From: a virus
Strand: one strand, 5' to 3'
Virus record (IMG/VR): IMGVR_UViG_3300020383_000002
Span: 1-51,018 of that record
Length of the DNA: 51,018 nucleotides
The notes under the pieces: generated by a model
Told to the model about the DNA's origin: nothing
The model's database searches: none
The model's input: only the letters and a program-made list of their open reading frames with translations
Part shown: positions 1-51,018 of the stretch, piece after piece
Position numbering within the stretch: the stretch's first letter is position 1
How the letters are laid out: each line of letters opens with the position of its first letter
Made by a program: the position numbers and the translations under genes

Positions 1-77
1 CCCAGAATGGCCTCTGAGGCCTGTTCTATGTCCTCTACGGGCCTACCTAGCACCTTGGCCATAACGGAGCTTACAAC
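1..77. repeat. Terminal direct repeat, left copy (contig circularity overlap)
   Basis: The first 77 bases are identical to the last 77 bases of the window (50942-51018). The repeat lies inside a single open reading frame that becomes continuous when the ends are joined, so this is most simply the overlap of a circular assembly (77 is a common assembler k-mer) rather than a physical phage terminus. The unique genome is therefore 50,941 bp. A genuine short terminal repeat cannot be excluded from sequence alone. Confidence 0.95.
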
Positions 78-4587: not shown

Positions 4588-6030
4588 TCATTCCGCTGCC
4601 CTCACGGCCATGTAGATGTAGGTTTCGTTGTCGGCTTTAAGTCCCGGTAGATTGCCGGGATTTGCAACGAACCCGCTTGACGTTTTGTAAAAACCCTGCC
4701 TTTCTGCTATCTCTGCGTCAGATGTATTTGCATATAAAAGATCGTTCGCTACATCGGTTGTGCTGATAGAAGAAACACCTCTAGTTGAGTCAAGCATAAA
4801 CCAGTTGCCCGTGCTATTTGCTGACTTTAGCAAGACGAACTGAGGCTCCCATCCTAGACTAACAGTAACGTCTATGAACGAACCGGCGGCGTCAGCACTA
4901 AAGCTCCCACACTGAATAATCCCGCTATCCGAGGGGTCGTGCGCCCATAAATATGCGACGTACTGGCCGCCGGAGGCGTTGAGAGCTGTGCTGTTGCCAA
5001 CGTAGAAGTGGCTATCATCAGGGTCCTGGGGGTATATGTTAGAACTGGCGGCGACAGCACCGGTATCAAACTCGACGTAGTTCGGGGCTCCCAGTGCCCG
5101 GTGGTATATCCGCCAGTCACCAGAACTATCCAGCCGCTTAACTACAACCACCCCCGGCGCAACACCCAAATCATGCGCTATCTGCCGCCCGCTTGTGCCA
5201 TCCCCCGTATACTGCACAATATCGAAGAACTTAGGGGCTTGGCGGAAAGACCAAGCAACATAGCTAGCGCCACTAGCGTTTATGCCTTGATCGTTAATAG
5301 CATTAATCACAAAACCATCGGATTGAGGTGCTGTATAGTTACCTGTGAATTTTGCGTCAGTTGTGTCTGATCTTAAGACGTCCTGATTGCCCGCCAGTGG
5401 CTGCATCAAATAGTGTGAAACAGCGCCGTCTCTACGCTTAAACCAAGTCAGTCCACCTTTGTTTAAAAAATCTATACCATTTATTACTGGGTTAGTGCTG
5501 CCAGTGCCGTTGTAGAGGGCGGTGGAGAAAACTCCACTAACTGATACAAATGATGACGCTGTGTTAAATTCACTGAGAGGAGACCATGCACTAACTAGCA
5601 CTTGCCCTTCATGCCTAACCTCTGCTGTGTATGTTTGTCCTTCCTGTAAGACACCTGCTGGGACAGTTATGCTTAACAAAGACAAACTATTCAAGGACTC
5701 CCATACAACAGTGCCTATTGCGTCCCTCACTCTCCAACTAGAAGAAGTGTGTACATCAGCTCCAGGAGGTGTAGTGGAGAAAGCACTACTTTGAAGAACC
5801 ACTTCCTCTGGTTGATCTATAGCCCCATCTACAGGAGAGGTGATGGAAGGAGTGTTAATACTATCCACTCCCTCAAGCAGGTAGGTTTTAAACCCTCCTA
5901 CCTTAGCTAGCATATCAGGGAGAGAACCTGTATACCCTAGTTGTCTAAGTTCCTTAAACATTTTGTCATTTAAACTTCCGGTAAACCCTTTGTCAGAGAG
6001 TCTTTTACTTAATTCGTCAATTACACTCAT
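4588..6030 (-). CDS. Tail fibre / receptor-binding protein, DUF7483-like
   Basis: 480 aa and first gene of the minus-strand arm. Residues 1-45 carry a tandem motif (DKGFTGSLNDKMFKELRQ, then LGYTGSLPDMLAK) typical of small head/tail-associated anchors. Residues ~50-155 look like a fibronectin-type domain (VDGAIDQPEEV...TYTAEVRHEGQVLVSAWSP). Residues ~165-480 match the pattern of a phage lectin-like domain (NGIDFLNKGGLTWFKRR, repeated VAW/VAYLW strands). Bases ~4590-5530, encoding the lectin-like part, are clearly more GC rich than the surrounding genome, suggesting module exchange. Confidence 0.7.
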   Translation of the reverse strand: MSVIDELSKRLSDKGFTGSLNDKMFKELRQLGYTGSLPDMLAKVGGFKTYLLEGVDSINTPSITSPVDGAIDQPEEVVLQSSAFSTTPPGADVHTSSSWRVRDAIGTVVWESLNSLSLLSITVPAGVLQEGQTYTAEVRHEGQVLVSAWSPLSEFNTASSFVSVSGVFSTALYNGTGSTNPVINGIDFLNKGGLTWFKRRDGAVSHYLMQPLAGNQDVLRSDTTDAKFTGNYTAPQSDGFVINAINDQGINASGASYVAWSFRQAPKFFDIVQYTGDGTSGRQIAHDLGVAPGVVVVKRLDSSGDWRIYHRALGAPNYVEFDTGAVAASSNIYPQDPDDSHFYVGNSTALNASGGQYVAYLWAHDPSDSGIIQCGSFSADAAGSFIDVTVSLGWEPQFVLLKSANSTGNWFMLDSTRGVSSISTTDVANDLLYANTSDAEIAERQGFYKTSSGFVANPGNLPGLKADNETYIYMAVRAAE

Positions 6031-6176: not shown

Positions 6177-6220
6177 GTTATGTGATGCGGGGTAGCCTAA
6201 TTTATGCTAGAAAGTATTTT
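6177..6220 (+). promoter_or_regulatory. Promoter-like element copy A (phage sigma candidate)
   Basis: GTTATGTGATGCG at 6177-6189 followed by TGCTAGAAA at 6205-6213, a 28-base offset that is the same in all four copies in this genome (also 8371, 10184 and 16868). The 13-base upstream box is identical in the four copies, while the spacer varies. There is no TTGACA-like -35 at the sigma-70 position, so recognition by the phage-encoded sigma factor (21229-21711) is an attractive inference. Confidence 0.65.
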
Positions 6221-8370: not shown

Positions 8371-8416
8371 GTTATGTGATGCGTTTCTGCATCATTTACA
8401 TTAGAAATATATTTGG
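8371..8416 (+). promoter_or_regulatory. Promoter-like element copy B
   Basis: GTTATGTGATGCG at 8371-8383 and CATTAGAAA at 8399-8407, the same 28-base offset as the other copies. It lies just before the RBS of the gene at 8426, so it probably drives the group that includes the tRNA and the cyclotransferase gene. Confidence 0.65.
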
Positions 8417-8737: not shown

Positions 8738-8811
8738 GCCCCTGTAGCTCAATTGAATAGAGCATGTCCCTTCTAAGGACAGGGTTGTAGGTTTGAATCC
8801 TACCAGGGGCG
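8738..8811 (+). tRNA. tRNA-Arg (anticodon TCT)
   Basis: 74-base cloverleaf: acceptor GCCCCTG pairs with CAGGGGC, the D arm has GCTC/GAGC, the anticodon stem GTCC/GGAC encloses loop CTTCTAA with anticodon TCT, and the T arm is GTAGG-TTTGAAT-CCTAC. CCA is not encoded. It would read AGA codons, which are used in the phage late and early genes. It is the only tRNA I can see in the genome. Confidence 0.93.
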
Positions 8812-8831
8812 CTTATTCGTAAGGACTACCC

Positions 8832-9698: not shown

Positions 9699-9847
9699 TG
9701 ACAGTTTCTACGCCAACCAATGAATATCTAAGCTGGAGCCTACCTAGGTTGTGTATCGTGGTTAAGTGTTTACACGCTAGGGATAGTTCTCTTAAGTTTA
9801 GGATTAGACGCTACAAGGGTATATGGAATCTTAAGGTATATACCTAG
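9698..9847 (+). CDS. Hypothetical small protein
   Basis: 49 aa, starts on the TGATG overlap with the preceding gene and ends in the left edge of the AT-rich repeat element (stop within ACCTAG). Basic composition. Supported by coupling and by filling the gap; no family recognised. Confidence 0.45.
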   Translation: MTVSTPTNEYLSWSLPRLCIVVKCLHARDSSLKFRIRRYKGIWNLKVYT

Positions 9848-9969
9848 AATTATATCTGTTGGTTATTAACATTATTATAACCAACAGAACATATACCTTG
9901 TATATACCTAGTATATATATCTTAAAGGGCGTAATATTATATACTGGAAATTACAGAAAAACCCAGAAA
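9830..9969 (+). repeat. AT-rich double-hairpin element, copy 1
   Basis: About 140 bases that align in the same orientation with 46320-46443 at roughly 80% identity. Parts in order: palindrome AGGTATATACCT; hairpin 1 CTGTTGGTTAT (9856-9866) with ATAACCAACAG (9877-9887); hairpin 2 CTAGTATATA with TATATACTGG; conserved tail AAACCCAGAAA. In hairpin 2 the A of copy 2 is a G here, which keeps a G.U pair in plus-strand RNA. Candidate replication origin, recombination site, structured RNA or small mobile element. Confidence 0.8.
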
Positions 9970-9989
9970 AATAATTGGAGAAAATTGCT

Positions 9990-10183: not shown

Positions 10184-10227
10184 GTTATGTGATGCGTCTT
10201 AGGCTGATTTCTGCTGCAAAATAATTT
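10184..10227 (+). promoter_or_regulatory. Promoter-like element copy C
   Basis: GTTATGTGATGCG at 10184-10196 and TGCTGCAAA at 10212-10220, same spacing as copies A, B and D. It would drive the genes from 10240/10319 onward. Confidence 0.65.
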
Positions 10228-16867: not shown

Positions 16868-16911
16868 GTTATGTGATGCGTTATAGCACAATTTTTGCTA
16901 CAAAATATTTT
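16868..16911 (+). promoter_or_regulatory. Promoter-like element copy D
   Basis: GTTATGTGATGCG at 16868-16880 and TGCTACAAA at 16896-16904, same spacing as the other three copies. A partial second upstream box (AGTTATGTGA near 16845) precedes it. It would drive the HslV-like, lysozyme and replication genes. Confidence 0.68.
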
Positions 16912-16963
16912 CGGGAATTAAGCCCACCAGGGGTATATAACCATTACCCCTTTGGAGAAAGTT

Positions 16964-17374
16964 ATGACAACAATTGCGTATAAAGATGGTGTGGTGGCAT
17001 GTGACTCTCGTATGGCTGAAGGGGGCATGATTCTACATGACGACTACAACAAGCATAAAGTTGTAGAAGGTGTACATTTCTTCTGTGCTGGATCGGTTGA
17101 TGACATACCTGCTCTAATTCAGTTCTATTTGGCCGGAGAAGAGCGGCAAGGCCGATGCACTGCCATAGTAGTGGATGAGGGAGAAGTCTTATCTGTGAAG
17201 CTAGGAGACGGCTTTACGGAGGTTACCCCTGTAGACTACCCATACGCTATTGGTTCAGGCACAGAGTTTGCTCTAGCTGCTATGGATATGGGGGCTGACG
17301 CTAAAACGGCTGTCAAGCAGGCTATGAAGCGTGACTGTTTTACTGGAGGACGAGTGAGGACATTTAAAGTATGA
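16964..17374 (+). CDS. HslV/proteasome-beta-like Ntn hydrolase
   Basis: 136 aa from ATG 16964 (GGAGAAAG upstream). Begins MTTIAYKDGVVACDSR, which matches the mature start of HslV and proteasome beta subunits: Thr2 would become the N-terminal nucleophile after Met removal and Asp follows in the CDSR strand. The C-terminal YAIGSGTEFALAAMDMGADA is the usual helix-1 region. It is shorter than bacterial HslV (about 175 aa), so it may assemble differently. Function in phages is unknown; proteolysis or an amidase role linked to the preceding cluster are possible. Its stop overlaps the lysozyme start. Confidence 0.85.
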   Translation: MTTIAYKDGVVACDSRMAEGGMILHDDYNKHKVVEGVHFFCAGSVDDIPALIQFYLAGEERQGRCTAIVVDEGEVLSVKLGDGFTEVTPVDYPYAIGSGTEFALAAMDMGADAKTAVKQAMKRDCFTGGRVRTFKV

Positions 17375-18251: not shown

Positions 18252-18766
18252 TGGAGGCTACACAATATTTTTACTTGCGAGTTCTTGGGGAGTTGCCAAT
18301 ACGGACTAAAGACCGGCGTGTAAAGTACGCTTGTGTATGTAAATGTGGAAACCTCGTAGCCGTTGCAGGAAGAGCCTTGCGGAAGGGTACAACTAAAAGC
18401 TGCGGATGTTACCTAAAAGATCATGCTATTAGTTTCAATAAAGAAACTAAGACTAAAAAAGTGGAAGGTATCAGAACAAAATTACATCCGCTATTCCGAA
18501 CTTACTCGGGAATGAAAACACGTTGTCTTAATGAAAAACACACTTACTACCACTGCTATGGTGGGAGGGGTATCACGATTTGTGACAGATGGTTAAACTC
18601 TTTTGAAGCCTTCGTAGAAGACATGGGGCCAAGACCAGAAGGACATACCCTAGACCGTATTGACAACGATGGCAACTATGAACCTGGGAACTGTCGTTGG
18701 GCGACTCGTAAAGAGCAAGCGAATAACCGATCAAACAATGTAGGAGGGGAGAATGGCAGGAACTAG
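18251..18766 (+). CDS. Free-standing HNH homing endonuclease
   Basis: 171 aa from ATG 18251 (AGGAGG 4 bases upstream). N-terminal zinc finger-like CVCKCGN...CGCY, then the typical phage HNH arrangement: [22 protein letters not shown], and [22 protein letters not shown] containing the catalytic His/Asn residues. It is inserted between the MazG-like gene and the primase-helicase, overlapping the latter's start, a typical location for an endonuclease that targets the neighbouring gene. Confidence 0.88.
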
Positions 18767-19730
18767 CCTTTTTAAACTCCCACATAGTTGTTCCTCTAGC
18801 GATGGTCTTCAAGTATTTGAGCAAGAAGATGGTACGGTGGATGGCTATTGTTATAGTTGTAAGACATACGTACCAGACCCACTCAAAGGCCAAGCTGTAG
18901 AAGACTTTCCTGTAAAGAAAAGGTTGAAGAAGTCTAAAGAGGAGATTCAAGCAGAGATAGAGGAGATTAACTCCTACCCAGTAGATGACTTGCGTAGTCG
19001 TATGCTTCGTAAGAAGTCCCTTGAGAAGTATGGTATTAAGCTGGGGTACGATGAAACAGACGGCCAAACTGTCAAGTTCATGTACTTTCCCTACACTAAG
19101 GATGGTGAGCTTAAGTCATATAAGGTGAAGCTGTTAGAGCCTAAGAAGTTCTGGGCTTTAGGAGATCAATCTGATGTAGATTTATTCGGATGGGAACAAG
19201 CTGTAGCCACTGGTGCTAAGCGTCTAATAATTGTGGAAGGTGAGTTAGACGTACCAGCTCTTGACCGCATATTAGAAATGCACACCAGTGAGAAGTGGAA
19301 GGACATGATTCCTGCTGTGGCTTCTCTCCCTCATGGGGCAGCGTCTGCTGGTAAAGACTTAGCTAGGCTAGCCTCTAAGATTAGGCGTCACTTCAAAGAT
19401 ATTAGCTTCTGCTTTGATAATGACAAAGCAGGAAGGGACGCATTAGAAGCAGCAATGAAGGTGTTCCCTGATGCTACGTCCATTGACCTTCCTTGTAAAG
19501 ATGCTAACGACTGTATCCTGCAAGGTAAAACTAAAGCAGCTCACAAGGCTGTTACCTTCAACGCTAGCAAAGCAAAAAACACAAGGCTAGTGTGGGGAAG
19601 AGAAGTCCATGAGATTGCTAAGGTGCCTGCCCAATGGGGTGTACCCTGGCCCTGGAAGCGTCTCACAGAGCTCACACGGGGAATTCGTACCGGAGAGACC
19701 TACTACCTAGGCGCTGCTCAGAAAATGGGT
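18753..19730 (+). CDS. T7 gp4-like primase-helicase, exon 1
   Basis: 326 codons. N-terminal zinc-binding region ([14 protein letters not shown]...YCYSCKTY) resembles the T7 gp4 zinc finger, with one ligand apparently His11. TOPRIM primase motifs [14 protein letters not shown] and [13 protein letters not shown] follow. The exon ends in the Walker A loop (GAAQKMG). The 5' splice site is supported by pairing of exon AUGGGU with intron GCCCAU, with U.G at the cleavage site. Spliced to 20319-20993, the protein is 550 aa, close to T7 gp4 (566 aa). RBS GGAGGGG at 18744. Confidence 0.93.
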
Positions 19731-20318
19731 TTGTAAAAGCCCATGTAAAAGACATTGAATTCAGGGGAAGCCTAGAACAGGTAATCCTGAGCCAAGCTAT
19801 CCTGCCTCTTTGAAAAGGAGGCGCTTATGAGAGTAAAAGATTACCCGAACTATCGAGTGTACGAGGATGGCACAGTAGTAGGTGCCCGTGGTAAGATTCT
19901 CAAGCAAGATGAGAACTCCACTGGGTACAAACGTGTCAGCCTATGTAAGAATGGAATTGTCAAAAGAGTTTTCGTACATCGACTTGTGGCTGAACATTTT
20001 GTCGAAGGTTATGAGGACGGGAAGGTTGTTAACCATATCGATGGTGACAATCAGAATAATCATAAAGACAATCTGGAATGGGCCACCATGTCTGAGAATG
20101 TCAGAGATGGTTGGCTTAGAGGACGAGATTCCTCTCACTTACACTTGAACTTTAGACGGGCAGGGTAGAAGGTGCAACGACTATCCCGAAAGGGAGTAGG
20201 GCCAAGTGGCTCGAAGCGGTGTCCTCCAAAAGGAGATGATATAGTCTGGTCTGCATGGGGACATGCAGCAGTTCATAAGAGAACGGGCAGGGCTTAACGA
20301 ACCCTGTCGAACACTACG
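19731..20318 (+). mobile_element. Group I intron in primase-helicase gene (588 bp)
   Basis: Interrupts the Walker A motif between Gly and Lys codons. 5' end: exon AUGGGU^ pairs with GCCCAU (19740-19745). 3' end: last base G (20318), after which AAG-AGC restores GAAQKMGKS. P7 strands GACTAT (20179-20184) and ATAGTC (20241-20246) are visible, and GATGATATAGTCT is shared with the capsid-gene intron (GATGTTATAGTCT), suggesting the same intron subgroup. No P10 pairing is evident. It contains an HNH endonuclease gene. Confidence 0.9.
19827..20168 (+). CDS. Intron-encoded HNH homing endonuclease
   Basis: 113 aa with RBS AAAAGGAGG. N-terminal NUMOD4-like strand (DYPNYRVYEDGTVVGARGKIL) and HNH motif (VHRLVAEHFV...VNHIDGDNQNNHKDNLEWAT) with His-Asn-His type catalytic residues. 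Located in a peripheral loop of the group I intron upstream of the P7 strands. It would cut intronless helicase alleles and drive intron homing. Confidence 0.92.
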   Translation: MRVKDYPNYRVYEDGTVVGARGKILKQDENSTGYKRVSLCKNGIVKRVFVHRLVAEHFVEGYEDGKVVNHIDGDNQNNHKDNLEWATMSENVRDGWLRGRDSSHLHLNFRRAG

Positions 20319-20993
20319 AAGAGCGAGGTTGTGAACACCCTAGGGGCATGGCTAATTGAGCAGGTGGGTTGGTCTGTAATGATGGCTAAGCCAGAGGAGG
20401 CTAACGCTAAGACATACAAACTTGTAGCGGGAAAGATTGCTGGTAAGATTTTCCATGACCCTAAAGTAGAGTTTGATGAGGAGGCTTACGACAGGGCTGG
20501 GGATATTATCCAAGACAAGTTGTGTATGGTAAATCTGTATCAACACCTTGGATGGGAGACGCTACAGACAGACATCAGATCAGCCGCTGCTGAGGGGTGC
20601 AAGGCTATCTTTATAGACCCTATCACTAACCTCACTAACGGTATGAACGCTGCTGATGCTAATACGAAGCTACAAGAGATTGCTCAAGAACTCGCAGCTA
20701 TGGCTAAAGATCTTGATGTTGCTATCTTTATATTCTGCCATCTTCGTAATCCCGATAGTGGTCTTTCTCACGACCGTGGAGGGCATGTCCTTACTAGCCA
20801 GTTTGCTGGCAGTCGTGCCATGGGTCGTAGTTGTAATTATATGTTCGGACTTGAGGGGAACAAAGACCCAGAACTCTCAGAAGAAGAAAGAAACGTAAGA
20901 CACTTGGTTCTCCTTGATGACAGGGAGTTTGGTGAGGTAGGTAGTGTACCTCTGTTCTGGAACCGTAAGACTGGATTGTTTTCGGAGATGTAA
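20319..20993 (+). CDS. T7 gp4-like primase-helicase, exon 2
   Basis: 225 codons including stop. Begins KSEVVNTLGAWLIEQ, completing Walker A (GKS). Walker B-like KAIFIDPITNL, a FIFCHLR strand (H4-like) and SRAMGRSCNYMFGLEGN (Arg finger region) identify a RecA-like DnaB-family helicase core. A GTG at 20331 is only an internal codon, not a start. Drives unwinding and primer synthesis at the fork with the polymerase encoded 0.7 kb downstream. Confidence 0.93.
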   Translation, partial: KSEVVNTLGAWLIEQVGWSVMMAKPEEANAKTYKLVAGKIAGKIFHDPKVEFDEEAYDRAGDIIQDKLCMVNLYQHLGWETLQTDIRSAAAEGCKAIFIDPITNLTNGMNAADANTKLQEIAQELAAMAKDLDVAIFIFCHLRNPDSGLSHDRGGHVLTSQFAGSRAMGRSCNYMFGLEGNKDPELSEEERNVRHLVLLDDREFGEVGSVPLFWNRKTGLFSEM

Positions 20994-21073: not shown

Positions 21074-21229
21074 ATGCTTTTAAAAGTTAGCTGGCGGGTA
21101 GACTACTGGAAAGAGGATGAGAGGTGCTACCTAAAAGGTAAAACCTGTAACTCCCTAGACGAAGCGCTACATTATTGTGCAGAAGGCGTGCCTGCACGTA
21201 TTGTTAAGGTCACTGAGGAGGAAGTGTAA
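21074..21229 (+). CDS. Hypothetical small protein
   Basis: 51 aa (MLLKVSWRVDYWKEDERCYL) starting one base after the preceding stop and ending on the ATG of the sigma-factor gene (TAATG). Likely translated as part of the coupled group; no family recognised. Confidence 0.55.
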   Translation: MLLKVSWRVDYWKEDERCYLKGKTCNSLDEALHYCAEGVPARIVKVTEEEV

Positions 21230-21711
21230 TGACCCTTGAAGAACTCTACACAGAGAAGTCTGAGGCACAGGTTAAGTCTTTAGCAGGACGTGTAGGAGGC
21301 ATTCACAATGCGGAAGATATTGTGCAAGAAGCCTACTGCCGAGCCTTGAAACACCTAGACACCTTTGACGCTAATAAGGCTTCCCTAGAGGTGTGGGTTC
21401 AACGAATCATTAAGCGTTGCACCTTTGACTTTAAGCGTCAAGAGCTAATGCAAGGCATGGTTCGTGATGAGATGGATAAGGATGAACCCTTTGAAGACTT
21501 CCGGGACTTGGGGGTGTCCACTCTAAAGGAAGTGGTAGAGGAGATTGGTAAGCGTAAGAAGGCCCACCAGGAGGTATTACGCCTAACCTTCGTCAAGGGC
21601 TACCGTCCCCGTGAGATTGCAGAGATTGTTGAGGAAGGCTCACGAGGTATTGAACACATTATCCGTTCCTTTAAGCTGGACATGATGGCTAAGTATCGGG
21701 AGGATGTATAA
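21229..21711 (+). CDS. ECF-like sigma factor
   Basis: 160 aa. Residues ~20-75 match sigma region 2 (HNAEDIVQEAYCRALKHLDTF, then WVQRIIKRCTFDFKRQE), and residues ~110-155 match region 4 (EVLRLTFVKGYRPREIAEI..IEHIIRSFKLDM). Regions 1 and 3 are absent, as in ECF factors. It should redirect host RNA polymerase to phage promoters; phiEco32 encodes a functional analogue. Candidate target sites are the four elements at 6177, 8371, 10184 and 16868. RBS GAGGAAG. Confidence 0.85.
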   Translation: MTLEELYTEKSEAQVKSLAGRVGGIHNAEDIVQEAYCRALKHLDTFDANKASLEVWVQRIIKRCTFDFKRQELMQGMVRDEMDKDEPFEDFRDLGVSTLKEVVEEIGKRKKAHQEVLRLTFVKGYRPREIAEIVEEGSRGIEHIIRSFKLDMMAKYREDV

Positions 21712-43600: not shown

Positions 43601-44273
43601 TTAGTAGTTAGAAGCAGAAGTGATTAGGACGCCCAGAGTGTCTACACGCTGTACACCCATACCCCAGCGAGCACGTACTACGAACTCATCACGAGCACGG
43701 TCTTTGTTACGCTCACCTTCAGACTTGGGCATACGACGCCATGCAGCCATTACAGGCTTGGTTTGGTCATCAAGTACGCACATGAAGATGTTAGCAACAC
43801 CGTCAGTGACAGAGGTAGTGCCGTCAGAGAAAGTGCCACGAGGAAGACGATTGGACTGGATAATATCCCAACCAAACAGGCTCATAACAAAGCGCTGACC
43901 ACGAGCCAAACCTTCTTCCAGAATCTTCTGACCGAAAGGAGTCACATCATGGGTGATTGTTACCAGACGGTTAAGAGTAGCTTCAACAACAGGATCGCAG
44001 ATGAACACTCGGCCTTCAGCAGGTACGTTAGCTTTATCAAAAGCTAGACGCATCTGAATCAGGTGATCAAGAGCGAATACGTTGTTGGTTTCAGAAGAGG
44101 CAATGCGATGCGGGAAACCGTTAATGGTGTTAGGATCAGCATTAACTTGACCAGCTTGTGCAACTGTCAGGAAGCGAGTCTCAAAGTTCTCCTGGATGGC
44201 GCGGGTAGACTCAACAGAACGTTGTGTCATAAGCTGCTCAACCTGAGAACCGTCTTCACGGAGGTCATCAGTA
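43601..44273 (-). CDS. Major capsid protein, exon 2 (C-terminal part)
   Basis: Begins T-ACT-GAT-GAC so that the first codon is completed by the micro-exon (GT|T = Val): ...V TDDLREDGSQVEQLMTQRSVESTRAIQENFETRF. The upstream part of this frame before the internal Met at 44230 is therefore coding. The rest (VFICDPVVEATLNRLVTI, QIL..GWDIIQSNRLPRG) has the features of an HK97-fold capsid of marine podophages. The spliced product, with the 44-nt insertion removed, is 312 aa. Confidence 0.9.
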
Positions 44274-45178
44274 CATTGGGTATTTCAACCCATCAGACTA
44301 TAACATCATCCTTTCGGATGCTTACGGATTTAGTCGTTGCGAGTGTCTCACAGAAGCTACGAAGGTCTTCATCAGTTGCTCCCAATCTCCGGGAGTGCTT
44401 ATTCTTACTGATAAAGTCGTAAGCTATTTCGAGTTGGGTTCTCTTAATCATAAGATGTTTTCCCAAGAACTCGTATAACTCCTGTACCTTAGATGGTGAT
44501 AAGTTAACGCGCCAGTTCGCAGTATTCCTTGTTTCAACTATGTTACCACCAAAAGATTCTTGGAGGAGCTTGACACCCGCTTGAGCGTGTATCCATGTTG
44601 AAACAGACAATCTGCATTCTAGAGAGCCTTTCTTATTAAGGCTTGCGCTAATGCAACCATCCCCGTCAATATACCCAGCAGCCCATCTACGTGAGGGCCG
44701 ATGCTTACAGGGAGTGTTATTCCGTCTAAGGTTTTTAATAACAGACTTGATTGCTTTAAGCTCTGTCTCATCTACAAACTTAGGCAAGGATAGTACGTAT
44801 TTTGCCAAGTCTTGTTTCAGAACCATGTGCTTAAAAGTATGCTCAAGCAGATTGCCGCCCTTCTTTCCTGATACCCTAATCTCATCTGTACCACGAGAGT
44901 TTCTATGTACTGTTAAATTATAGAAGCCAGCTATATCGTGGAGGAGATTACTCCGGTGAGGAAGTTGGGTTATACTGATAACAGGGTAGATTGCAAACCT
45001 ATCTCCAAACTTCTTAGCGTGGATTTGGATGCTACCATCTGCGTCAATAAAGCCTGCTGCATATTTGAAATCAATCATCATACTCTCCGTATGTGTATAA
45101 GTCTATCGAGACTTCTCTCTGGTTAGCCACTACAGCCTTCCAGTTATTTACCATAAGTTTTAAGTATGCTACAAACGA
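44274..45178 (-). mobile_element. Group I intron in major capsid gene (905 bp)
   Basis: 5' splice site: exon GUAUGU^ pairs with intron GCAUAC (45164-45169), with U.G at the cut. P10: the GUA just before that guide pairs with UAC at the start of exon 2. 3' end: final G at 44274. P7 candidates AGACT (45100-45104) and AGTCT (44295-44299). GATGTTATAGTCT near the 3' end resembles the helicase intron. The intron carries a LAGLIDADG endonuclease whose stop codon lies in the 3' core. Confidence 0.92.
44293..45081 (-). CDS. Intron-encoded LAGLIDADG homing endonuclease
   Basis: 262 aa with two LAGLIDADG motifs, AAGFIDADGSI near residue 8 and AAGYIDGDGCI near 134, so it should act as a monomer with a pseudo-symmetric DNA-binding surface. 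Both catalytic Asp are present. RBS GGAGAG. Its 3' end (VSIRKDDVIV) overlaps conserved bases of the ribozyme. It would cleave intronless capsid genes at the intron site. Confidence 0.95.
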   Translation of the reverse strand: MMIDFKYAAGFIDADGSIQIHAKKFGDRFAIYPVISITQLPHRSNLLHDIAGFYNLTVHRNSRGTDEIRVSGKKGGNLLEHTFKHMVLKQDLAKYVLSLPKFVDETELKAIKSVIKNLRRNNTPCKHRPSRRWAAGYIDGDGCISASLNKKGSLECRLSVSTWIHAQAGVKLLQESFGGNIVETRNTANWRVNLSPSKVQELYEFLGKHLMIKRTQLEIAYDFISKNKHSRRLGATDEDLRSFCETLATTKSVSIRKDDVIV

Positions 45179-45198
45179 ACATACCAAGCGTCGCCAAT
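45179..45198 (-). CDS. Major capsid protein, 20-nt micro-exon
   Basis: Encodes I-G-D-A-W-Y and the first two bases of a Val codon. Bounded upstream by the 44-nt insertion and downstream by the group I intron. From memory of the family, a TDY-xGDAWYxTDxLREDG sequence is continuous in related capsids, so this micro-exon supplies the conserved GDAWY. Its frame is not open through the upstream exon. Confidence 0.85.
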
Positions 45199-45242
45199 CG
45201 ATCTTATGACGCTTTTACGACTACATTGGCTTAATGAATAAT
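45199..45242 (-). other. 44-nt frame-breaking insertion with group I-like guide (candidate core-less mini-intron or bypass element)
   Basis: Lies between GAC-TAT and ATT-GGC of the capsid gene, is not a multiple of 3 and has an in-frame TAA (45231-45233). It begins after U and ends in G. Inside it, GCCAAUGUAGUC (12 nt) is complementary to the joined flanks GACUAU|AUUGGC, with a single U.G pair exactly at the junction: the arrangement of P1 plus P10 in group I introns. The bases after the guide (GUAAAAG) also match those after the guide of the helicase intron. No room for a catalytic core. ATT occurs at both edges, which would also allow peptidyl-tRNA re-pairing in a translational bypass. Confidence 0.85.
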
Positions 45243-45488
45243 ATAGTCAGTCATCTGCATGGTTACTTCACCAGTTTCAATCGGTGCGTAAACCAGCGGA
45301 GTGTCTTCAGCAGCTTCTTGGATGGTTACAGAACCAACGGTCTTGATACGCAGAGTATCACCAGAACCGAAGTCAGATACGTTGCGGTAGAAGGACTCCG
45401 GCAGGAGGCCATCGTGGAGGTTCATCAGGATGAACTGAGAATAAACCTCGGACTCGATAAACGCACGAGTATTAGTTGTAACTTGCAT
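45243..45488 (-). CDS. Major capsid protein, exon 1 (N-terminal part)
   Basis: 82 codons (MQVTTNTRAFIESEVYSQFI ... VTMQMTDY) with RBS AAAGGAAAA. Without removal of the 44-nt insertion, translation ends after three more codons (IIH, stop), giving an 85-aa fragment. The N-terminal arm and the ETGEVTMQMTDY strand fit the start of an HK97-type capsid. Follows the scaffold gene with a 13-base gap. Confidence 0.9.
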
Positions 45489-45501: not shown

Positions 45502-46299
45502 TTAGTCAACTTGTACGCCCAAGCGTTCGTATGTCGCCTTCTGAACCTGTTTCAAGTAATCACGCTGATCAGCATACTTCGCCCCGCTTAATAGTGACTT
45601 CTCTGGGCGAGTTACTTCAGCAGTGTTCTTGGGGGTAACAGGAGGGATATTTACGCTTGAACTAGAGGGATGCCCTTGCGAGCTTGGTTGTTTAGCATTG
45701 AACAACGCGAGAACCATATCTGGACTCTCGGAGGCTAACTGACCCAGCTTAGTAGGAGTAATACCAAGGTCTTTAGCACGCTGTGCTACAACTTCCTTGG
45801 TCTTGTCTCCGTACATCTGGGAGATAGCTTGCTCGACTTTTTGAATGTTAGATTGGGCCGCTTGTGCCTTCTCACGCTCAGTCAAGCGCTGTTCCAGCAT
45901 TTCCTGAACTTGCTCTGGTGTCAATCCCTGAACCTCTTGTGGAGTTGGGGCTTGTTGACTTTGAGAAGTGAGCCGCTGGATCGTATCATCAAGACTACCA
46001 CGCTGCTCCAGTTCTGCTTTTAACCGCGTCAGTTCCTCTCTCAGCGATTCATTTTCTTGCTTGAGTTGTGGGATGTACTGTTGGGAATGTTGCAGGGCCT
46101 GGATGGCTGTAGGTACGTCTCGATACTTCGGCTCTCCACGTTCATTCTTGATTGATGCAAGCTGGTCGGCCCACATTGAATCTGATGACGCAGATGATGC
46201 TGGTTCCTGCGGAGTTTGAGACTCTGACGCAGGTTGTTGCTGTTGTGAAGTCTCCTGGGTAGGAGCTTGATCACTAAATACAGATGACTCGGTAGTCAT
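45502..46299 (-). CDS. Scaffolding protein
   Basis: 265 aa. Pro/Gln/Ser-rich disordered N-terminus (QDQAPTQETSQQQQ-like), central coiled coil (QQYIPQLKQENESLREELTRL) and an acidic/helical C-terminus with TYERLGV. Immediately upstream of the capsid gene and downstream of the portal, the standard place for a scaffold that directs procapsid assembly. RBS AAGGAA. Confidence 0.88.
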   Translation of the reverse strand: MTTESSVFSDQAPTQETSQQQQPASESQTPQEPASSASSDSMWADQLASIKNERGEPKYRDVPTAIQALQHSQQYIPQLKQENESLREELTRLKAELEQRGSLDDTIQRLTSQSQQAPTPQEVQGLTPEQVQEMLEQRLTEREKAQAAQSNIQKVEQAISQMYGDKTKEVVAQRAKDLGITPTKLGQLASESPDMVLALFNAKQPSSQGHPSSSSVNIPPVTPKNTAEVTRPEKSLLSGAKYADQRDYLKQVQKATYERLGVQVD

Positions 46300-46319
46300 A
46301 AAATTCCTTGAATTAGTTT

Positions 46320-46443
46320 CTTAGGTATATACCTAGATTTAATCTGTTGGTTAGTAATAATAATTATAACCAACAGACATATACCTAGTATATATCTTAA
46401 GGGGGTATTATTATATACTAGAATTTGAGACAAAACCCAGAAA
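46320..46443 (+). repeat. AT-rich double-hairpin element, copy 2
   Basis: Related to 9830-9969 (about 80% identity, same plus-strand orientation). Contains AGGTATATACCT, hairpin 1 CTGTTGGTTA (46344-46353)/TAACCAACAG (46367-46376), hairpin 2 CTAGTATATA/TATATACTAG (perfect 10 bp) and AAACCCAGAAA. Located between the scaffold gene and the 84-aa gene of the minus arm, so its orientation relative to transcription is opposite to copy 1. Confidence 0.8.
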
Positions 46444-46698
46444 TTATTTTTCTTTTTCTTCTAAAAGTTTAATAACATCATTCATAGCTCGCTCATAACC
46501 CCTTGAATCCGCTTGAAGAAGTGCCCAATTAGGACTTTCGTATAAATTTTCACTCTGACACGCTGTAATTTTAGCGTGAATCTTCCTTTCGAGCATCTCT
46601 TTTAAGCGTTTACGCATAACAACAGAGGAATTAAAACTCTTTCGTATCTCCTCTTTGCGTTCAGGGTCTTTAATGTAAGCTGTCCAGCTTGTCTTCAT
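46444..46698 (-). CDS. Hypothetical small late protein
   Basis: 84 aa, charged and helical (DPERKEEIRKSFNSSVVMRKRLKEMLERKI). It lies between portal and scaffold genes; start overlaps the portal stop. Could be a head assembly accessory protein. No family recognised. Confidence 0.7.
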   Translation of the reverse strand: MKTSWTAYIKDPERKEEIRKSFNSSVVMRKRLKEMLERKIHAKITACQSENLYESPNWALLQADSRGYERAMNDVIKLLEEKEK

Positions 46699-50582: not shown

Positions 50583-51018
50583 TCTGCCTCCGAGCTTTTT
50601 GATCTGATTCTGCTGCTACAGCAAAACGAGAAATAGTTGAATCTTTTTCTTTACTTCCAACAGATGTGCCAAGCCAAAAGTTTAATACTTGAGTAAACGC
50701 TGTAGCCATAGAACCCATGAGCAAGTAGGCCACTGCTTGGCTCCCTGCCGGGATAGCTACAAACATTAAGAGAAACAGCAGAACAGAGAACGCAATAACA
50801 ACAAGAGTAGATATTGCAATTGGCCCTTTACTCACTTTTAAAATCTGTCGAGCATCTTGCACATCCTTAGTGCGAATCTCTAGTTCTTTAATTTCTGCGT
50901 CCCGCATACGTGAGCGGAACTCCATAGTTAAGTTAGGATCGCCCAGAATGGCCTCTGAGGCCTGTTCTATGTCCTCTACGGGCCTACCTAGCACCTTGGC
51001 CATAACGGAGCTTACAAC
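50569..51018 (-). CDS. Holin-like membrane protein, 3' part (5' end wraps to position 188)
   Basis: With the wrapped 5' end the protein is 186 aa. Central charged helix (RSRMRDAEIKELEIRTKDVQDARQIL) followed by two transmembrane segments (PIAISTLVVIAFSVLLFLLMFV and AVAYLLMGSMATAFTQVLNFWLG) and a polar tail starting GSKEKDS. This architecture resembles the GTA-type 3TM holin family with an FWLGTS-type motif. It would permeabilise the inner membrane for the GH108 lysozyme. Located between the spikes and terminases. Confidence 0.72.
   Translation of the reverse strand, partial: VVSSVMAKVLGRPVEDIEQASEAILGDPNLTMEFRSRMRDAEIKELEIRTKDVQDARQILKVSKGPIAISTLVVIAFSVLLFLLMFVAIPAGSQAVAYLLMGSMATAFTQVLNFWLGTSVGSKEKDSTISRFAVAAESDQKARRQNAPR
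50942..51018. repeat. Terminal direct repeat, right copy
   Basis: Identical to bases 1-77; overlap of the circular contig. Features here duplicate those at 1-77. Confidence 0.95.

Follow-up and report, generated by a model that had tools for sequence, protein, structure and literature searches.

The duplicated elements A (positions 9830-9969) and B (46320-46443) of the viral DNA analyzed here, whose whole length of 51,018 bp we call the window, are probably its two main late promoters, predicted from sequence to be read by the host RNA polymerase with an ECF-type sigma factor of the phage (21229-21711). In the proposed mechanism, the host enzyme carrying this sigma factor would recognize the cores of both elements; B would start the scaffold-capsid-tail transcript, and A, on the same strand, would start the transcript of the tail-spike and packaging genes. 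The core occurs a third time at 16912-16940 (plus strand), within the replication-gene region, where it would act as a middle promoter.

By gene content and order, the window is classified as a Zobellviridae-like podophage, with early genes running rightward and late genes leftward. Its portal protein is 54-71% identical to those of PA11, CVT22, CW02, and ICP2, the gene order terminase-portal-small gene-scaffold-capsid is the same in the window and its relatives, and other podophage genes found include those for a primase/helicase and a DNA polymerase and an amidoligase cluster. The record carries a 77-bp repeat at its ends (1-77 and 50942-51018); given that its size equals a common assembler k-mer length, this repeat may be an assembly overlap and not a true terminal repeat. 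The primase/helicase gene is split (18753-20993) and contains a group I intron match with an HNH ORF (19709-20268; 39.3 bits, below the gathering threshold, E = 2.2e-8). The major head protein reads as two pieces (43601-45488) separated by a LAGLIDADG ORF (44293-45081), and Rfam gave no intron match for this split gene. A tRNA-Arg (tct) gene lies in the early region at 8738-8812. All comparisons below involve the window and 20 relatives (21 genomes), among which V521E56 and V464E53 are near duplicates.

The two diverged AT-rich copies of the original prediction are real. A and B lie on the same strand with 79% identity (self-search, 46319-46443 versus 9826-9972, E = 1.8e-25). No other 100-bp stretch of the window genome is as AT-rich as these two, and both give stronger folds than dinucleotide-shuffled sequences on either strand (z -3.2 to -4.2), about equally on each. 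The series of palindrome and hairpin that had been claimed is likewise found in both: the palindrome AGGTATATACCT at 9834-9845 and 46323-46334, and the hairpin TCTGTTGGTTA..TAACCAACAGA at 9855-9888 and 46343-46377, with identical stems and diverged loops. Element B occupies the gap between the scaffold gene (45502-46299, minus strand; phrog_7931, E = 2.6e-54; named scaffold protein in relatives), which is the first gene downstream, and a small 84-aa gene upstream (46444-46698, minus strand; phrog_8956, E = 9.5e-27) in the leftward late operon, and element A sits between rightward early ORFs. The flanking genes differ between A and B, and the earlier statement that they are not part of a gene duplication holds. 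The second hairpin of that prediction is AGTATATA...TATATACT; the -10-like box of the promoter core described below forms one of its arms. The U.G pairing noted for its substitution exists in plus-strand RNA only; it carries no weight, as the promoter evidence predicts minus-strand RNA. What the earlier set of elements missed is this conserved bipartite promoter-like core, which would fit the phage's own sigma factor. Readings of A and B as a terminator or a host sigma-70 promoter were rejected, since neither element contains an intrinsic terminator (a GC-containing stem followed by a T run) or a TTGACA-16..18-TATAAT site.

The original prediction proposed a search for the element in other phages. 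A DNA search of a phage collection and an exact pattern search of viral contigs returned no match; a search by place did find second copies. When the scaffold gap of each genome was compared with its own genome, a second copy on the same strand was detected at E<=1e-4 in 15 of the 21 genomes (window included), 35.4-41.1 kb further round from the scaffold gap and in or beside the early region. In the control, 15 of 420 ordered cross-genome pairs reached the same zone and strand at this threshold. No second copy at E<=1e-4 was found in VPMCC5 (0.008), KZY1_1938105 (0.01), PA11 (AT repeats only), T4S1_776450, ICP2, or GX1. In PA11, KZY1_1938105, and T4S1_776450, the B core is strong but no A core is convincing, which counts against the late-promoter reading. 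ICP2 and GX1 have no AT-rich element in the scaffold gap, which as defined in GX1 includes a small annotated ORF. In a further relative, L083, the B core is kept at the same place with a flanking palindrome-like motif, and GGG-N17-GTATATA precedes the scaffold gene in contigs L084, L086, and L087, which belong to one lineage. For copy A of the closest relative, one scan gave no match, and in the other the contig ends before copy A. It should be noted that the scaffold gap of GP100 includes a tRNA-Asn annotated downstream of its B core (L011, 3416-3487), and that the long scaffold gap of T5S1_444551 (L012, 3287-3661) looks tRNA-bearing too. PA11 has a three-copy repeat family (L010, 1742, 20332, and 46342) similar in look to a second dispersed intergenic repeat of the window, GTTATGTGATGCG...ATTTTTGCTACAAAATATTTT, of which the window holds four copies on the plus strand (6177-6220, 8371-8414, 10184-10227, and 16868-16911).

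Common to every detected pair is a bipartite promoter-like core of about 45 bp on the late (minus) strand. The window core is TTCTGGG-N16-17-GTATATAA, and the cores of copies A (9937-9968, minus strand) and B (46411-46442, minus strand) both consist of the -35-like TTTCTGGG, 16-17 nt, and the -10-like GTATATAA. The window contains exactly three GGG-N17-GTATATAA sites, all intergenic, compared with a mean of 0.03 and a maximum of one in 200 random sequences; a bipartite motif thus recurs with fixed spacing and is otherwise rare in this genome. For much of the family, the core is TTGTrGGG or TTGTrACA, 15-18 nt, and GTATATA. Sixteen pairs were compared, the 15 detected ones and that of VPMCC5, all picked because a second copy had already been seen; the core (-45 to +18 of the -10 box) was strongly similar in 16/16, with the A-B similarity reached by 0/300 shuffles in 15 pairs, that of the window among them, and by 2/300 in one. 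Upstream of the core, 100 bp showed clear A-B similarity in one of the 16 pairs (T4S1_502596). A leave-one-out family motif, with core boxes chosen by eye from the A/B alignments, placed an A or B site first or second genome-wide in 11 of the 21 genomes. This motif is loose: neither A nor B was in the top five in 9/21 genomes, they ranked 4 and 5 in the window, and for Pecta B and GX1 the site ranked by the motif was not the aligned core.

The third window match, site M, is followed by CCATTACCCCTTTGGAGAAAGTT and an RBS-preceded ATG at 16964, 24 nt on, and continues CCATTACCCCTTTGGAGAAAGTTATG, an ordinary short leader. The last GTTATGTGATGCG...ATTTTTGCTACAAAATATTTT repeat copy ends directly 5' of this site. 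All three window sites stand upstream of genes on the predicted strand, B before the scaffold gene, M before its ATG, and A before the tail gene. An early-strand third site was identified in 12 genomes, and among the 11 inspected, five (window, GP100, T2S2, CW02, and KZY1_1938105) had an RBS-preceded ATG 25-43 nt from the -10 box. The third site of V521E56 and V464E53 has an RBS-preceded ATG at 91 nt, before a 552-aa ORF, that of T4S1_462158 has a TTG at 62 nt, before a 322-aa ORF, and those of V1.235, T4S1_776450, and VPMCC5 have no convincing start nearby. At the equivalent place in L098, a relative outside the initial set, CTGGG-N17-GTATATAA is followed by GGAG and an ATG, with -35 box, -10 box, and spacing the same as in the window.

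The predicted reader of these promoters is encoded at 21229-21711 on the plus strand and matches Pfam Sigma70_r2 (E = 5.7e-12) and phrog_1740. The profile of an 11-row alignment that includes it matches the ECF sigma factor SigW over the full length (1.6e-16), and Pfam region 2 is matched by 11/11 members and region 4 by 4/11. The window protein itself gave no Pfam region 4 match, and its assignment as an ECF-type factor with regions 2 and 4 rests for region 4 on the alignment. According to the available text of PMC9960094, a Zobellviridae genome lacks an RNA polymerase of its own. The sigma gene was found in 18/21 genomes, namely the window and 17 of the 20 relatives (15 directly, W07 and W13 by profile, the W13 match having one internal stop). 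No sigma match was obtained for T5S1_444551 (W04), GX1 (W17), and ICP2 (W19). Two of these three, ICP2 and GX1, are also without the AT-rich scaffold-gap element; T5S1_444551, in which the pair is present and the sigma match absent, counts against the late-promoter reading. In V521E56 (W06), T4S1_776450 (W07), VPMCC5 (W09), and V464E53 (W20), the profile matched two neighboring ORFs, one with region 2 and one with region 4, so that the sigma factor is split in these genomes.

Copy A of the window lies 3.9 kb from the first long late-strand ORF downstream (4588-6030, minus strand; virion/tail-fiber-like; phrog_19943, 1.4e-41; phrog_24898, 2e-36), with seven early-strand ORFs in between by simple ORF picking. 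Because of these ORFs, a transcript from A would run antisense through early genes first; it would cover about 4 kb antisense to the first early genes and oppose early transcription before reaching the late genes. In V521E56, V464E53, V1.235, and VPMCC5, the A core is 515-574 bp before the first long late ORF, and in ICP2, GX1, and T4S1_776450 an AT-rich stretch is found 78-143 bp before it, again by simple ORF picking. The predicted A leader (9830-9936, minus strand) is AT-rich and forms a nested hairpin comprising the inner stem and palindrome given above (fold z -5.0 on the minus strand). The predicted B leader (46300-46410, minus strand) contains TACCCCCTTAAG, an AT-rich nested hairpin at 46343-46377, and an RBS-like AAGGAA before the scaffold start. 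An AT-rich leader is a family-wide feature; leader sequence is clearly common to A and B (100 bp downstream, 0/300 shuffles) only in the window (z 28) and 4 of the other 15 pairs (T5S1_444551, T2S2, T4S1_462158, and T4S1_502596), with V1.235 and KZY1_1027853 borderline.

A promoter alone leaves this sharing of the whole leader and its AT-richness unexplained, and the leader may be an mRNA leader or a transcription-primed origin. Most simply, the AT-rich stretch after each core, with its nested hairpin in the window, would be the 5' leader of the late RNA. The structured RNA of the original prediction is only partly right, in that the hairpin stands just downstream of the predicted promoter on the minus strand. 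It is a tentative possibility, compatible with the late-promoter reading, that this hairpin acts in the regulation or stability of the late transcript, the promoter being just its start. Consistent with such a role, L083 keeps a hairpin at the place of the B leader with stem letters different from those of the window, and B leaders folded with z<-2 in 11/21 cases on the sense strand versus 4/21 on the antisense strand (paired p = 0.01; 10/18 versus 4/18, p = 0.007, without V464E53, ICP2, and GX1), where the leader limits are approximate (fixed offsets) and some of the genomes are related. However, the A leaders showed no strand bias (p = 0.57), the two strands fold about equally in the window elements, and Rfam gave no match to the leaders: its sole match at the gathering threshold was a tRNA elsewhere, and A, B, and L083 yielded no credible match even at E<=1.

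In the promoter-linked origins of T7 and T4, an AT-rich stretch that opens easily follows a phage-specific promoter. A and B are alike in this layout and could be paired, transcription-primed origins of that kind, as the earlier suggestion of an origin pair would have it; we consider this unlikely. In its favor, an AT-rich stretch apt for unwinding is present, in 15/21 genomes (window included) the highest AT content of any 100-bp stretch is that of the scaffold gap, and mean AT over the 80 bp downstream of the core is 0.82 for B (n = 19) and 0.77 for A (n = 16) versus 0.65 for M (n = 12). Apart from AT-richness and layout, nothing positive was found. AT-rich leaders also follow the third sites of V521E56, V464E53, and VPMCC5, the folding bias of the B leader toward the predicted transcript strand is needless for an origin acting at the DNA level, and GC skew falls across B in 18/18 genomes, opposite to a bidirectional origin, whereas it rises across A in 10/12, in agreement with one, homologous genes confounding both counts. 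The two remaining suggestions are very improbable, given that in 15/21 genomes the relative positions and the strand of the two copies are unchanged. A miniature mobile element inserted twice would leave diverged copies at two unrelated sites of a genome, as seen here, but neither copy shows terminal inverted repeats and the collection and contig searches found no match. A site for recombination or resolution would fit direct repeats with dyad symmetry, yet no recombinase was recognized among the ORFs scanned (part of all ORFs), and recombination between A and B would split the genome into two circles, parting essential genes.

In 11 of the 16 genomes, A and B scored higher against each other than either did against its best counterpart in another genome (A-A' and B-B'). 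Concerted evolution of the copies was considered and rejected, as A and B remain separate orthologues in V521E56 and V464E53, and the core is accounted for by co-evolution with the sigma factor. The leader shared by A and B in 5/16 pairs is the sole point beyond the core that hints at it. It is also distinctly unlikely that A and B have a double role, as sigma-dependent late promoters and, through their AT-rich hairpin leaders, as transcription-primed origins, in which antisense transcription from A would silence the early genes, one sigma factor would time early shut-off, late expression, and replication, and the copies of each genome would be kept alike by recombination or sigma co-evolution.

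The late-promoter reading has parallels in other phages, judging by the available text of the reports. In phage 7-11, the sigma factor SaPh711_gp47 serves late promoters with the bipartite sequence GTAAtg-(16)-aCTA upstream of late genes (PMC8948821). The arrangement of a phage sigma factor with a bipartite promoter before late genes is similar to that predicted here, whereas the boxes differ and neither a paired AT-rich hairpin leader nor an antisense copy is described in that text. In phiEco32, gp36 serves both middle and late promoters (tAATGTATA), as one sigma factor would in the window, but the phiEco32 promoter is a single element without a -35 box (PMC8948821, PMC4331800). Antisense RNA over a temporal class of genes, with a proposed shut-down, is described for PAK_P3, in which early antisense RNA covers late genes; in the window, by contrast, a predicted late promoter faces early genes (PMC4933390). 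In a literature search, we recognized no study of Zobellviridae promoters. Phage promoters that change fast can be found by searching a conserved gap against its own genome instead of across genomes. For a widespread phage family, the predicted promoters amount to a transcription map that can be tested, with specific questions raised by the antisense position of A and by the AT-rich leader.
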